Shown: piece after piece, positions 34,704 to 39,586 of the stretch | How positions within the stretch are numbered: position 1 is the first letter of the stretch | Layout of the letters: each line of letters starts with the position of its first letter | Assembly: GCF_001262505.1 (NCBI RefSeq) | Contig: NZ_KQ410726.1 | Location: 62,001 to 126,000, forward strand | Source: Shinella sp. SUS2 | Lineage (GTDB): Bacteria; Pseudomonadota; Alphaproteobacteria; Rhizobiales; Rhizobiaceae | DNA: 64,000 nt | Direction: 5' to 3' | Translations under genes and position numbers: made by a program | Notes under the pieces: generated by a model | Databases searched by the model: none | Told to the model about the DNA's origin: nothing | Seen by the model: only the letters and a program-made list of their open reading frames with translations

Positions 34704-35324
34704 TTAGAGCGCCCGGATGATCTTGCGCAGCGCCTCGTTGTGCGCGCCTAGCATCAGCACGTTCTTCATGGCAAGCTTCGGATCGTCGGTGCGGAAGAGC
34801 ACGCCGTTGCCGCGCACCTTGCGGTCGATCTGCAGACGGCCTTCCTCTTCGGCCGGCGTGATGGCGACGGCGAAATACATCCGCCCGGCCTTCTTCGAGA
34901 TGTCGGCGAAGAACTGCTCCTCCTCACCGATCTCGGCGAAGAAATTGGCCATGTAGAAGGCCCATTGCACATTCTCGAATTCCGCGAAGCGGGAATTGGC
35001 GACGGTGATGTGGCAATAGCCGAGATGCGGCGTCTGGGCGAGCGTGCGGTGGAAGATCAGCTTGGGAAAGCGGATCGACTGGTGGAAGCCGTTGATGCGG
35101 TCATGCGTGACGCTGCCGGCATTTTCCAGCTTGCGGCCGGTACGCTCGGCCACTTCCTGGTAGCTGAGGTAGCGCTTCTCGTTCGGGCTCCAGCTGACAT
35201 TCCGGTCGATGCGGCCGGTGCGCAGGAACTCGGTATGGGCGGCCGATTTCGGCTGATTCGCGCGCTTGTAGGCGACTGCGTCGTAGTAACGGAACTTGGT
35301 TTGCTGCACGCGTCGGCACTCCAT
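34704..35324 (-). CDS. DUF6656-like conserved hypothetical protein
   Basis: A 206-residue protein with FRYYDAVAYKRANQPKSAAH, SWSPNEKRYLSYQEVAERTG and QWAFYMANFFAEIGEEEQFF. I know similar rhizobial proteins as DUF6656; the name is from memory. Start may be the ATG at 35324 or a GTG five codons in. No signal or membrane segment. Function unknown. Confidence 0.7.
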   Translation of the reverse strand: MECRRVQQTKFRYYDAVAYKRANQPKSAAHTEFLRTGRIDRNVSWSPNEKRYLSYQEVAERTGRKLENAGSVTHDRINGFHQSIRFPKLIFHRTLAQTPHLGYCHITVANSRFAEFENVQWAFYMANFFAEIGEEEQFFADISKKAGRMYFAVAITPAEEEGRLQIDRKVRGNGVLFRTDDPKLAMKNVLMLGAHNEALRKIIRAL

Positions 35325-35617
35325 CCTCGCGCCCCGATGCGATGAAGTTTATGGAAACGGCGTTAAGCATTCCTTGCCAATCCGCCCCCGCTTTTTCCAA
35401 AGGTTCCGGAGGGGTCGCAATATGACAATTGTGTCACCGGGCAGGCCAGGTGGCCAAAAGGGTATTCATGCTGCTCGTTTCTTTTGCATAATTGATTGAA
35501 ATATATGCAATTAGGCCTGAGGTTGGCTTGCCTCTGCCCATTTTATCTCTGTCGCCAAATCGGAATGGCATGTCGCTAACTGACATGTCGTTTGCCGGGT
35601 CTTGCGTTTAGATAAGA
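35325..35617. other. AT-rich intergenic region upstream of the cobalamin riboswitch
   Basis: About 290 bases without a gene. It holds TGACA-ATTG-TGTCA (35423-35436), the inverted repeat TTGCATA-N13-TATGCAA (35484-35510), and three TGTCG copies at 35550, 35571 and 35586. The region is unusually AT-rich for this genome and must hold the promoters of the DUF6656-like gene and gbcAB. Confidence 0.5.
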
Positions 35618-35792
35618 ACACTCGAGGTGCCGTTCTGACGAAGAGCGGAGAATTGGGAAGCCGGTTGAAATCCGGCGCTGCCCCCGCAACGGTGTAGGAG
35701 AAACGCGCGGCGAGACGCCACTGGACAGAAAGTCCGGGAAGGCGCCGCGACGGTCCTGACGGACGCTCCTGAGCCCGGAAACCAGCCTTGGG
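35618..35792 (+). promoter_or_regulatory. Cobalamin (adenosylcobalamin) riboswitch upstream of gbcAB
   Basis: The conserved core is complete: GGGAAGCCGGT with its hairpin partner TCCGGC (35655-35676), GCTGCCCCCGCAACGGT (35677-35693), GCCACTGGAC with GTCCGGGAAGGC (35717-35743), and the B12 box GAGCCCGGAAACCAGCC (35771-35787). All lie in the right order and strand. The next gene is gbcA, 116 bases downstream. CCGGAT (35852-35857) or ATGCC (35856-35860) could pair with ATCCGG or GGCAT at the gbcA start, a possible translation-blocking platform. Confidence 0.9.
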
Positions 35793-35907
35793 AATGATCG
35801 TGACTGGCTGCGGCGGGCGGCCGGGAAGCGTGCAGTCCGGCGCCCCCGCGCCCGGATGCCGTCTCCTTCCGTGCGCCTCATCCCCAACAGGATATCGAGG
35901 ATCCGGC

Positions 35908-37152
35908 ATGGACATCAGCAGCGACGTGCTCCGCAAGCTCAAGAACCGGCGCGAGGGCCACAGCCTCGAGCAGGCCTTCTACATCGACCCCGATCACTAC
36001 AGGCTCGATCTCGAGACGATTTGGTATCGCGACTGGCTGTTCATCGGCCATGACTGCGAGATCCCGAAGGCCGGCAACTATTTTACCGTGCAGGTCGGCG
36101 ACTATCCCGTGGTCATCACCCGCGACCGCACGGGGACCGTGCGCGCCCTGCACAATTCCTGCCGTCACCGCGGCTCGCGCGTCTGCACGCAGCACAAGGG
36201 GTCCTCGGCCAAGCTCGTCTGTCCCTACCACCAGTGGACCTACGAGCTGGATGGCTCGCTGCTCTTCGCCCGCCACATGGCCGAGGATTTCGACAAGAGC
36301 CAGCACGGTTTGAAGCGCGTGCACTGCGAGACCGTCGGCGGATACATCTTCATCTGCCTTGCAAACGAGGCGCCGGATTTTTCCGCTTTCCGCAACCTGG
36401 TCGAGCCCTATCTTGCCCGTCACCGCCTCGGGGAGACCAAGGTCGCCTTCGAAAGCACGATCGTCGAGAAGGGCAACTGGAAGCTCGTCTGGGAAAACAA
36501 CCGCGAGTGCTATCACTGCGCCGCCAACCATCCCGAGCTTTGCCGCACCTATCCCGAGGCGCCGAGCGCCACCGGCGTGCAGGGCGCCAAGGACGATCCC
36601 GTCATCGCCGCGCACTGGGAGAAATGCGAGGCGGCGGGCCTGCCGAGCGAATTCCGCATGTCGTCGACCGGCCAGTTCCGCGCGGCCCGCATGCCGCTCA
36701 TCCAGGATGCCGAGAGCTACACGATGTCCGGCGCCCGCGCCGTCAACCGCCCGCTGTCGAACGATGTGCTGGAAAACCACATCGGCACGCTGCTGCTCTT
36801 CCACTATCCGACGACCTGGAACCATGTGCTCGCCGACCATGCCATCACCTTCCGCGTTCTGCCGCTTGGGCCGGAGCTGACGCAGGTCACGACGAAATGG
36901 CTGGTGAACAAGGACGCGGTCGAGGGCGTCGATTACCGCCTTGACGAGCTCACCCATGTCTGGACCGAGACCAACGACCAGGACCGCCGCATCGTCGAGG
37001 AAAACGCCTTCGGCATCCGCTCGCCGGCCTACCAGCCCGGCCCCTATTCGCCGGAAGACGAGGGGGGCGTCATGCAGTTCGTCGAATGGTACGTGAACTT
37101 CATGGTCGATCGGCTCGACGGCGCCAAGAAGCCGCTCTCGCGGGTGGCATGA
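35908..37152 (+). CDS. gbcA: Rieske non-haem iron oxygenase, glycine betaine demethylase oxygenase subunit-like
   Basis: A 414-residue oxygenase component of the GbcA type, which oxidatively removes one methyl from glycine betaine to give dimethylglycine and formaldehyde. The Rieske cluster ligands are Cys85, His87, Cys105 and His108; the mononuclear iron site includes His203 and His208 in NNRECYHCAANHPEL. The ending NDQDRR and YQPGPYSPEDEGG matches GbcA. Stachydrine demethylase is related, so betaine is likely but not proven. The GAGG Shine-Dalgarno and ATG lie downstream of the riboswitch. The reductase follows after one base. Confidence 0.85.
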   Translation: MDISSDVLRKLKNRREGHSLEQAFYIDPDHYRLDLETIWYRDWLFIGHDCEIPKAGNYFTVQVGDYPVVITRDRTGTVRALHNSCRHRGSRVCTQHKGSSAKLVCPYHQWTYELDGSLLFARHMAEDFDKSQHGLKRVHCETVGGYIFICLANEAPDFSAFRNLVEPYLARHRLGETKVAFESTIVEKGNWKLVWENNRECYHCAANHPELCRTYPEAPSATGVQGAKDDPVIAAHWEKCEAAGLPSEFRMSSTGQFRAARMPLIQDAESYTMSGARAVNRPLSNDVLENHIGTLLLFHYPTTWNHVLADHAITFRVLPLGPELTQVTTKWLVNKDAVEGVDYRLDELTHVWTETNDQDRRIVEENAFGIRSPAYQPGPYSPEDEGGVMQFVEWYVNFMVDRLDGAKKPLSRVA

Positions 37153-37153
37153 C

Positions 37154-38257
37154 ATGACGATCGCAAGCCATTTCCGCCATTTCGACGAGCTTCATCCGTG
37201 GAACGATCGCCAGCACATGCTGGAATGCATTGCCGTAACGGTGGAGACATCAGACGTGATGACCTTCACCTTCCGGTCCGACCGCGACAACTGGTTCCGA
37301 TACCTGCCCGGCCAGTTCGTCACGCTGGAAATTCCGGTTGCGCAGGACGATCCCGTCCTGCGCACCTATACGCTCTCCTCGACGCCCTCGCGGCCCTTCT
37401 CCGTTTCCGTGACGGTGAAGGCGCAGAAGAGCTCGATCGGCACGCGCTGGATGTTCGACAACCTGAAGCCCGGCATGAAGCTGAAGGCCTTCGGCCCGCT
37501 CGGCGACTTCTCCCTCGTGCGCTATCCCGCCGAAAAGTATCTCTTCATCTCGGCCGGCTCCGGCGTCACGCCGATGATGTCGATGACGCGCTGGATGTCG
37601 GATTGCGCGCCGCAGTCCGACGTCGCCTTCGTCACCTGCGCGCGCAAGCCGGAGGATCTGCTGTTCAAGGCGGAGCTTGAATGTCTTGCCGCGCAGATGC
37701 CGAACCTGACGCTCGGCTTCGTCGTCGAGGGGCACAATCCGCGCGACGGCTGGCACGGATTGCGCGGCCGCATCGATGCCGCCCGTCTCTCGCTGCTCGC
37801 GCCGGATTTTCGCGAGCGCACCGTCTTCTGCTGCGGCCCGGAACCTTTCATGCGCGGCGTCAGAGACCTTCTCAAGGTTTGCGGCTTCAACATGGAGCGC
37901 TACCACGAGGAGAGCTTCCAGCCGGCCGCAGCGCCTGCCCCGGAGGAGATCGCCATCCGCGCCGGCGCCGGTGAGCACGACGTCGATGCCAATGCCGTTG
38001 CGACCGTCACCTTCACCATGGCCGGCAAGGATGCGAAATGCCCGCCCGGCCAGACGATCCTCCAGACCGCCCGGGCGGCCGGCGTGCGCATCGGCGCGGC
38101 CTGCGAAGGCGGCCTGTGCGGCACCTGCCGGGTGATGAAGCTCTCTGGCGAGGTGGACATGCGCCACAACGGCGGCATCCTCGACGACGAGATCGAGGAA
38201 GGCTACATCCTTGCCTGCTGCTCGCGACCGGTCGGCGACGTGCAGATCGAGGCGTAG
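37154..38257 (+). CDS. gbcB: Ferredoxin reductase subunit of the betaine oxygenase
   Basis: A 367-residue hybrid reductase: FAD domain with LRTYTLSSTPSR, NAD(P) domain with SAGSGVTPMMSM and FCCGPEPFM, and a C-terminal plant-type 2Fe-2S domain with Cys317, Cys322, Cys325 and a further Cys near 355. It passes electrons from NAD(P)H to GbcA. One base separates it from gbcA, so the pair is one operon under the riboswitch. Confidence 0.88.
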   Translation: MTIASHFRHFDELHPWNDRQHMLECIAVTVETSDVMTFTFRSDRDNWFRYLPGQFVTLEIPVAQDDPVLRTYTLSSTPSRPFSVSVTVKAQKSSIGTRWMFDNLKPGMKLKAFGPLGDFSLVRYPAEKYLFISAGSGVTPMMSMTRWMSDCAPQSDVAFVTCARKPEDLLFKAELECLAAQMPNLTLGFVVEGHNPRDGWHGLRGRIDAARLSLLAPDFRERTVFCCGPEPFMRGVRDLLKVCGFNMERYHEESFQPAAAPAPEEIAIRAGAGEHDVDANAVATVTFTMAGKDAKCPPGQTILQTARAAGVRIGAACEGGLCGTCRVMKLSGEVDMRHNGGILDDEIEEGYILACCSRPVGDVQIEA

Positions 38258-38285: not shown

Positions 38286-39380
38286 TCAGAAATCCTGATA
38301 GTTCAGCGGCGTCACCTCGACCAGGCGGCGGCCGACCGTGGTGGTCGCGGTGCCCTTGGCCATGATGCCGGCGCGGACTTCGGCCGTCACGGCGACGGGG
38401 AAGGATGCTGTCGCGCCCGAGGCGAGCGTGACGGCGCCGGCCGTCTGTGCGCCGGTGCCGGCTTCGGCCTCGGCCCTTACCGTTGCCTTGAAGCTGCCGC
38501 CCGACGGGATGGAGGCGGTGAGCATGGTGTCGACGGGCTCGAAGGGCTTTTCCGGCAGGAGTTCGCCGAAGGCCCAGGCCCTGCCGAGCGCCGCCTTGGT
38601 CATCGGTGCGACGTTGACGTCGATATCGGTCAGCGCGCCCTTCACCCGGTAGGGGCAGCGCCGTTTCGAGCAGTTGACGCCGGCGGAGAACTGCCAGAGC
38701 GCGTAATTGTCCCAGTTGCCCATCGGGAAGGCGTCCTCGATGCCCGGCTTGTAGCGGGCATACCAGAGCGGCAGGCGCGAGAGGATGCGATACCTGTCAC
38801 GGTTGAGGGCGATGAACCGGGCGGTCGAATGGTTGGTGTAGAGCACGGGATAGCGGCCCGTGCGCGTCTTGATGTGTCCGGCAAAGACCTGCGCATCCTC
38901 CAGCGACATGTAGTTGTCGGGATCGATGCCTTCGATATCGAGCACCATCATCTCGTCGTCCTGGGGATTGGCATAGTCGAGGAAATGGTTGGCCTGATCG
39001 ATCGGATTGCCCGGCCGGGCGAGGTGATAGGCGCCCCAGAGCAGCCCTTTCGAGCGGGCGAGCAGCCGGCGGGTCTCGTAGAGTTCGCGGCTCACCGCAT
39101 ATTTGCGCCACATGGTCTTGCAATGCGCCACCGTGTCGCCGCTGTGCTCGCCCTTGCAGCTGAAGCTTTCCGGCAGGCCGTCGGACGCCTTGGAGATGAA
39201 GCCGGCAATGCGCGTGTCGGACAGCATCTCCGACCAGTCGATCTCGTTCAGCTCATAGGCATCGATGACGATGGCGTTTTCCGGCTTCTTCCACGGTTCG
39301 ACGTTCGCGGCGCTTGCTGAAAAGGGCAGGGCGGCCAGCAGGAGAAGGGCGGCCAGGCCGGAAAGATGCTTCGGGTTCAT
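38286..39380 (-). CDS. GH25 family muramidase-like secreted protein
   Basis: A 364-residue exported protein with signal peptide NPKHLSGLAALLLLAALPFS, then a GH25 domain: VIDAYELNEIDWSEM, GAYHLARPGNP, the acidic VLDIEG, YTNHSTARF, PLWYARYK and LWQFSAGVNC. GH25 enzymes cut peptidoglycan. A further domain of about 80 residues follows at the C-terminus. AGGAG precedes the ATG at 39380. Convergent with gbcB and divergent from the BA14K gene. Confidence 0.85.
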   Translation of the reverse strand: MNPKHLSGLAALLLLAALPFSASAANVEPWKKPENAIVIDAYELNEIDWSEMLSDTRIAGFISKASDGLPESFSCKGEHSGDTVAHCKTMWRKYAVSRELYETRRLLARSKGLLWGAYHLARPGNPIDQANHFLDYANPQDDEMMVLDIEGIDPDNYMSLEDAQVFAGHIKTRTGRYPVLYTNHSTARFIALNRDRYRILSRLPLWYARYKPGIEDAFPMGNWDNYALWQFSAGVNCSKRRCPYRVKGALTDIDVNVAPMTKAALGRAWAFGELLPEKPFEPVDTMLTASIPSGGSFKATVRAEAEAGTGAQTAGAVTLASGATASFPVAVTAEVRAGIMAKGTATTTVGRRLVEVTPLNYQDF

Positions 39381-39436
39381 GGACGCTCCTGTTCGATATC
39401 GCGCCGGCGCAAGTGCGCATGGTGCGCGAAACATGG

Positions 39437-39451
39437 TTAACGGATGGCTAA
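39437..39451. promoter_or_regulatory. CtrA-like site TTAA-N7-CTAA
   Basis: TTAACGGATGGCTAA lies between the divergent GH25 and BA14K genes and differs by one base from the CtrA consensus TTAA-N7-TTAA. Confidence 0.35.
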
Positions 39452-39586
39452 CATGCACAAAACCCGGCGTTGAACATTGAATCGCGCGCGAGAAGATCGC
39501 ATATGGAACGAAAGGGACTTTGGTGCGTTTCGCGTTCAAATTGCCGTTCGAGCAACAGTCGAAAGGCCCTCTCAGGGAGAAGTGTC

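Follow-up and report, generated by a model that had tools for sequence, protein, structure and literature searches.

A cobalamin riboswitch upstream of a gbcAB-like operon in Shinella and its co-occurrence with a putative corrinoid-dependent betaine demethylase

Riboswitch and operon at the gbcAB locus

The stretch of DNA analyzed here, hereafter the window, comprises 64,000 nucleotides from Shinella sp. SUS2 (contig NZ_KQ410726.1, positions 62,001 to 126,000 of the forward strand) and contains a cobalamin riboswitch upstream of two genes, for a Rieske oxygenase and a reductase, that resemble gbcA and gbcB. When the window was searched with Rfam at gathering thresholds, the cobalamin riboswitch family RF00174 gave the single match (116.9 bits against a gathering score of 31.5, E 1.2e-28), and as this match spans the full model (positions 1-189) the element belongs to the family; no other RNA family was detected in the 64 kb at these thresholds. 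The gbcB start lies one base past the gbcA end, and since the flanking genes are divergent upstream and convergent downstream, the leader can serve gbcAB only. These results bear out the initial annotation of this DNA, which had described a complete cobalamin riboswitch followed by gbcA and gbcB alone. All features are collected in Table 1.

The conserved GCTGCCCCCGCAAC motif in the aptamer was assigned to L5 from the structures of class-I cobalamin riboswitches, and the GGCGG-loop hairpin behind the aptamer is presumably P13/L13, the kissing partner of L5. Each of the six stem pairs of the hairpin is a standard one in 61 to 63 of the 63 leaders, and at pairs 3, 4 and 5 both partners have changed; the loop reads GGCGG in 56 leaders, GGTGG in 4 and GGAGG in 3. 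A constant GGNGG loop on a stem that changes in pairs is what would be expected for an L13 that pairs with L5. In an alifold consensus of 28 leaders this hairpin was the sole helix downstream of the B12 box.

No terminator-like site was found in the gbcA leader, and a segment complementary to the ribosome binding site (RBS) beat shuffled sequences in 21 of 66 leaders (p 0.05 or lower, mean z -1.06), a weak signal as the leaders are related. For these two reasons we favor translational control of gbcA by the leader as a plausible and the better guess. The initial annotation had also suggested translational control, through pairing of CCGGAT or ATGCC with the gbcA start; this pairing is possible in the window, but its sequence is not conserved among the 28 aligned leaders. 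Two other candidates were rejected, a conserved helix covering the RBS, because the alignment consensus showed the P13 hairpin only, and a C-rich stretch of the Rho type, which was unconvincing as C exceeds G in just 41 of 63 leaders.

Table 1. Features of the riboswitch-gbcAB locus and its neighbours (window coordinates)
Feature	Position	Strand	Evidence
Cobalamin riboswitch aptamer, complete (RF00174)	35608..35804	+	Rfam match, 116.9 bits, E 1.2e-28
Conserved GCTGCCCCCGCAAC motif with the presumed L5 loop	35677..35690	+	sequence
Hairpin with GGCGG loop directly after the aptamer, taken as P13/L13	35804..35824	+	motif in 63/66 intact leaders
Expression platform, hairpin to gbcA start (83 bases)	35825..35907	+	RBS-like GAGGAT at 35897-35902
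gbcA-like Rieske oxygenase, 414 aa	35908..37152 (ATG start 35908)	+	Rieske and Ring_hydroxyl_A domains, NCBIfam
gbcB-like FAD / NAD / 2Fe-2S reductase, 367 aa	37154..38257	+	Pfam domains, NCBIfam
Next gene upstream, divergent	34704..35324	-	gene map
Next gene downstream, convergent; glycosyl hydrolase family 25	38286..39539	-	gene map, domain match

Distribution of the riboswitch and of the mtg genes

The initial annotation had proposed looking for the same riboswitch-gbcAB order in relatives. We did so in the 80 named loci most similar to the window among the matches listed, with GbcA relatives of 75-95% identity (95% in S. yambaruensis), and called riboswitches intact from their motifs in at most 600 bases of DNA upstream of gbcA. 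The riboswitch was intact in 65 of these 80 loci, decayed in 4 and absent from 10, and one leader was cut by a contig end. Re-checking of 9 of the 65 intact calls with Rfam gave 9 matches of 79-112 bits, and the four decayed elements gave weak, partly missing matches of 56-61 bits. The usual upstream neighbours were kept at 9 of the 10 riboswitch-less loci, showing that the element was lost in place. A gbcB-type gene lies next to gbcA in 76 of 81 loci. At L087, L110, L111, L120 and L124 gbcA has the riboswitch and no gbcB-cluster gene was called alongside; the reductase may be encoded elsewhere. L087 (Rhizobium tropici PTD1) is an out-of-place gbcA amid three B12 riboswitches inside 15 kb.

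Alternatives to B12-dependent enzymes are among the known targets of cobalamin riboswitches (PMC3766115), and we therefore searched the Shinella genome for a B12-dependent betaine demethylase. The genome encodes four proteins of the MTTB family (PF06253), and one of their genes (mtgB) clusters with genes for a corrinoid protein (mtgC), DUF1638, an MTHFR (metF2), a methyltetrahydrofolate-corrinoid methyltransferase (mtgD) and a RACo-type protein, about 20 kb from cobN. MtgB matched the solved structures 4yyc (1076 bits) and 9yce, a glycine betaine methyltransferase (419 bits). For MtgC the best-scoring model was NF047996, at 212.3 bits under a cut-off of 370, and the MtgC of roseobacters has been described as distinct from that of anaerobes (PMC12478193). 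In Ruegeria pomeroyi, knock-outs of mtgC and mtgD lost growth on glycine betaine, both genes were required for methionine synthesis and MtgB proteins were more abundant in betaine-grown cells, and in S. meliloti mtgBCDE has been reported to adjoin cobalamin genes (PMC12478193). Elsewhere in the Shinella genome (L135, G000:C9:53000-69000) the fourth MTTB gene and two large FAD oxidoreductase genes form a row, and the first of the two has DAO and GCV_T domains; this row is possibly a second corrinoid-linked betaine route.

If gbcAB is a B12-independent backup, the riboswitch should be useful only where MtgBCD exists, and this prediction was tested with mtgB orthologs, of 81% identity or more in the named genomes. 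All 64 tested genomes with an intact riboswitch carry the ortholog (34 + 30, with L126 left out); so do 4 of the 10 that lack the riboswitch, and none of the 4 in which it has decayed. Within a second sample of 150 genomes of the order, a gbcA-like gene was found at E 1e-100 in 28. In 16 of these the match reached at least 50% identity, with the riboswitch present in 9; mtgB orthologs, of 65% identity or more, were present in 9/9 with the riboswitch vs 0/7 without it. In the other 12 the best gbcA-like match was 44-49% identical and the loci fetched had no riboswitch. A replacement enzyme is expected to have its B12-dependent counterpart in the same genome, and this was seen for mtgB in both samples (64/64 and 9/9). 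The riboswitch at gbcA is present in five sampled families of the order, and riboswitch-gbcAB was also found on a Phaeobacter plasmid (120 bits) and in further sampled genomes (L177, L178 and L184, with mtgB relatives of 62-81%).

This was further examined for mtgC in 32 genomes. Orthologs of at least 78% identity occur in 10/10 genomes with the riboswitch and in the 4/4 riboswitch-less exceptions that keep mtgB, and in 0/18 of the others, where only a match of 32-37% within metH was left. On the GbcA tree, riboswitch presence switches 10 times, and of 95 rows with both traits known 74 have riboswitch and mtgB, 17 neither, 4 mtgB only and 0 the riboswitch only (Fisher p 2e-15, ignoring kinship). 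Seven independent pairs could be drawn on the tree, and 6-7 were concordant and 0 opposite (sign test p 0.016-0.031). The ortholog of the mtgC-linked MtgB was present in each of 34 genomes whose riboswitch is intact, and the other MTTB paralogs varied. The remnants show how the element has worn away: in L115 and L122 (Rhizobium freirei and R. lusitanum SEMIA 4060) both ends and the B12 box are kept and the core is gone, L083-L085 and L090 have lost the arm that carries GCCACTGG / GGGAAGGC, and the remnant of L119 is more worn than those of L115 and L122. An mtgB ortholog is missing in all of these relic genomes, not so in L119.

The loss of the riboswitch could be a result of a general loss of B12 use, and this explanation was refuted by three controls. 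MetH is encoded in 31 of 32 genomes searched, including 22/22 without an intact gbcA riboswitch, and cobN likewise in 31 of 32, including 21/22 (G150, a 3.4 Mb metagenome assembly, being the exception); other B12 riboswitches over cut-off were present in 14/14 scanned genomes without an intact gbcA riboswitch. G044 gave no metH match and yet has mtgB, mtgC and the gbcA riboswitch.

The Shinella genome contains 8 RF00174 riboswitches, and those outside the window precede, among others, metE (1124 bits), nrdI-nrdE-nrdF (all above NCBIfam cut-offs), bluB, and cbtA with cobW. One (L016) precedes an ABC transporter that matched no B12 or siderophore model over its cut-off. Another (131.8 bits, L012:2065-2675, G000:C13:22064-22674) precedes a 67-codon reading frame, behind which come a CATAAAGATATCTTTATG palindrome, possibly a regulator site, and then metH; with frame and palindrome in between, metH may have its own promoter. 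In L027 (813-1017, minus strand) and L198, a second B12 riboswitch (136 bits) diverges from that of gbcAB; behind this second element come a 113-aa reading frame and a LysR-like gene, upstream of a two-piece metH. In L200 and L207, sampled genomes of one family, metH is encoded on the strand of riboswitch-gbcAB and downstream of it, and in a third genome, G121, about 4 kb separate gbcA from a MetH-like frame.

Identity of GbcAB and its probable substrate

GbcA has a Rieske (PF00355) and a Ring_hydroxyl_A (PF00848) domain, both above cut-off, and its CRH/CPYH and NNRECYHC motifs, which we take to be the ligand motifs, align with those of relatives, as expected of a Rieske oxygenase alpha subunit; GbcB has FAD_binding_6, NAD_binding_1 and Fer2. 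A Rieske oxygenase and an FAD/2Fe-2S reductase encoded side by side likewise make up the GbcAB monooxygenase of Pseudomonas and Chromohalobacter, and the models of this enzyme were the best NCBIfam matches. The window proteins differ from it by scoring under both cut-offs, by a separate tree branch and by lying behind a B12 riboswitch; the Pseudomonas gbcAB genes are controlled by GbdR. No second full-length gbcA-like gene was found in the genome at E 1e-10, where two partial matches had 31-37% identity.

The nearest solved sequences to GbcA are 3n0q (558 bits) and the stachydrine demethylase Stc2 (3vca, 528 bits). Identity to Stc2 (L192, which matches PDB 3vca at 929 bits) is 55.5%, and identity to three GbcA rows passing the NCBIfam cut-off is 43.6-46.4%. 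On the tree nearly all riboswitch rows share one branch (92 rows, support 96), which together with the neighbouring Stc2 group and L031 forms a larger branch (101 rows, support 97), and the rows above the NCBIfam cut-off are placed apart from it; the riboswitch rows L028, L184 and L193 fall within the Stc2 group. Stc2 acts on stachydrine, and the position of GbcA beside it makes this a possible substrate of GbcA as well. No RF00174 match was found in 7.2 kb around the S. meliloti Stc2 gene. Gene neighbourhoods favor glycine betaine: the record annotation of L194, a riboswitch-less 70% relative, lists etf genes, folD, a GlxA-type regulator, formaldehyde dehydrogenase and a BCCT transporter nearby, a riboswitch-less 54% relative (L205) adjoins a DAO + GCV_T gene of the dimethylglycine dehydrogenase type, and in L197 riboswitch-gbcAB adjoins a DAO + GCV_T gene and an MTTB gene. 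Judged from these neighbours, glycine betaine is most likely the substrate.

GbcAB as a probable backup of MtgBCD, and the alternatives

Taken together, our results suggest, with a probability of about 0.78, that gbcAB encodes a cobalamin-independent, O2-dependent N-demethylase of a betaine, most likely glycine betaine, that backs up MtgBCD of the same genome. The two systems would share their presumed substrate and the product dimethylglycine, and they differ in that MtgBCD depends on cobalamin, passes the methyl group to tetrahydrofolate and uses no oxygen. The analysis shows the riboswitch, the operon, the mtg cluster, their evolutionary coupling and the decay of the riboswitch in place; the ligand, the direction of the switch, the substrate and the physiological swap are what we infer here. 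When adenosylcobalamin is plentiful it would bind the leader and shut off gbcAB, and betaine methyl groups would reach tetrahydrofolate by way of MtgB and the corrinoid protein MtgC; under B12 scarcity MtgBCD would stall, the riboswitch would be empty and GbcAB would be made and demethylate betaine oxidatively with release of formaldehyde. The initial annotation had offered replacement of a corrinoid-dependent betaine methyltransferase at low B12 as its second reading, which the co-occurrence with mtgB and mtgC strongly supports at the level of gene content. It had also placed a Rieske oxygenase outside the known target groups of cobalamin riboswitches, and on this reading that was in effect wrong, as gbcAB would join the B12-independent replacements.

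Most likely gbcAB is thus a further such backup in a genome where metE and nrdIEF also sit behind B12 riboswitches. MetE is similarly a B12-independent substitute beside a B12-dependent enzyme, MetH; it makes the product of MetH and is biosynthetic, whereas GbcAB would use other chemistry, with oxygen and formaldehyde release, in catabolism. The same logic holds for the class Ib ribonucleotide reductase NrdIEF (its B12-dependent counterpart NrdJ was not searched for), which serves nucleotide synthesis, where gbcAB would serve osmolyte breakdown.

Several points weigh against this proposal. The named loci were selected by similarity to the window, and the tree-corrected test comes down to just seven pairs on a quick tree with SH-aLRT support only and no bootstrap. 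Four genomes (L104, L113, L116 and L119) have no riboswitch although mtgB, mtgC and mtgD are present, which makes the coupling one-way; a broken mtg cluster is ruled out for these three genes, and among the exception stretches metF2 was not found beside the other mtg genes in L212 and in L209 and L210 a RamA-like gene either fell outside the stretch or was not detected. In these four genomes gbcAB should be uncoupled from B12, a natural contrast. An mtgB relative is also present in 3 of the 12 order-sample genomes with a 44-49% gbcA-like match and no riboswitch. GbcA reaches 509.7 bits with its best NCBIfam model, NF058607 (GbcA), under the equivalog cut-off of 670, and GbcB 386.4 bits with NF058606 (GbcB), under a cut-off of 500, so the identity given in the initial annotation is apt as GbcAB-like and the full GbcAB label is not established. 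Stc2 itself scores 492 bits on the GbcA model vs 510 for the window GbcA, and by these comparisons stachydrine or another betaine is a possible substrate. Finally, 4yyc, the closest solved relative of MtgB, bears the name putative trimethylamine methyltransferase.

The latter observations bear on a less likely explanation, in which the oxygenase uses another quaternary amine, for example stachydrine, and that amine is also the substrate of the partner, either the same MttB-family methyltransferase or a different one. The higher identity of GbcA to Stc2 than to above-cut-off GbcA rows and the four MTTB proteins of the genome would fit this; the formaldehyde dehydrogenase, etf and BCCT genes beside the 70% relative, the adjacency of a gbcB-type gene in 76/81 loci and the constancy of the mtgC-linked MtgB ortholog in 34 genomes, with the other MTTB paralogs variable, argue against it. 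It is improbable that gbcAB instead belongs to a B12 supply regulon, in which betaine would give glycine, for 5-aminolevulinate (ALA), and one-carbon units for corrin methylation and so come under B12 feedback. Industrial B12 fermentations are supplied with betaine, which is said to stimulate the ALA precursor (PMC8123684), betaine is also among the media components in PMC5948670 and PMC9157374, and other riboswitches of the genome precede bluB and cbtA/cobW. However, the genomes without an intact gbcA riboswitch keep cobN (21/22) and other B12 riboswitches (14/14), what 18/22 of them lack is mtgC, and MtgBCD could yield the same glycine whenever B12 is present; the suggestion of the initial annotation that betaine demethylation feeds corrin synthesis is therefore disfavored. 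The 10 changes of riboswitch presence on the tree might also mean that the riboswitch is a historical accident of the operon, without a selected role at gbcAB, and this we consider very improbable, as the core motifs are kept in 65 of the best 80 named relatives (with 9/9 Rfam re-checks matching), five sampled families have the riboswitch, the stem of the hairpin shows paired changes and presence tracks mtgB.

Within the proposed backup of MtgBCD by gbcAB, a tentative extension is that the riboswitch sets the fate of betaine methyl groups, to tetrahydrofolate via MtgBCD with B12 and to formaldehyde via gbcAB without it, and thereby avoids a methyl-folate trap, in which methyl-tetrahydrofolate could be stranded as MetH and MtgC both stall. 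If so, gbcAB together with the riboswitch-controlled metE and nrdIEF would form one B12-scarcity programme that spans osmolyte catabolism and biosynthesis.

Rodionov and colleagues reportedly listed ardX-frdX as a predicted B12-regulated operon in 2003, with no partner enzyme or function assigned; this is possibly the same association as riboswitch-gbcAB, so the bare association carries no claim of priority. In the literature searches made here, supplements aside, we found no report on the pairing of riboswitch-gbcAB with MtgBCD, nor of a cobalamin riboswitch with a betaine demethylase.

Carriers of riboswitch-gbcA include two Ensifer adhaerens strains (L064 and L067), and another strain of this species is an industrial B12 producer grown with betaine (PMC9157374); if the operon is present in that producer, the prediction is that it is switched off there. 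That riboswitch and mtg genes decay together suggests a simple route to the partners of other unexplained B12 riboswitch targets. If the backup of MtgBCD by gbcAB holds true, it would place a catabolic enzyme among the few B12-riboswitch replacements, tie cobalamin supply to the use of a major plant and marine osmolyte and account for the presence of two betaine demethylases of different chemistry in many rhizobia.

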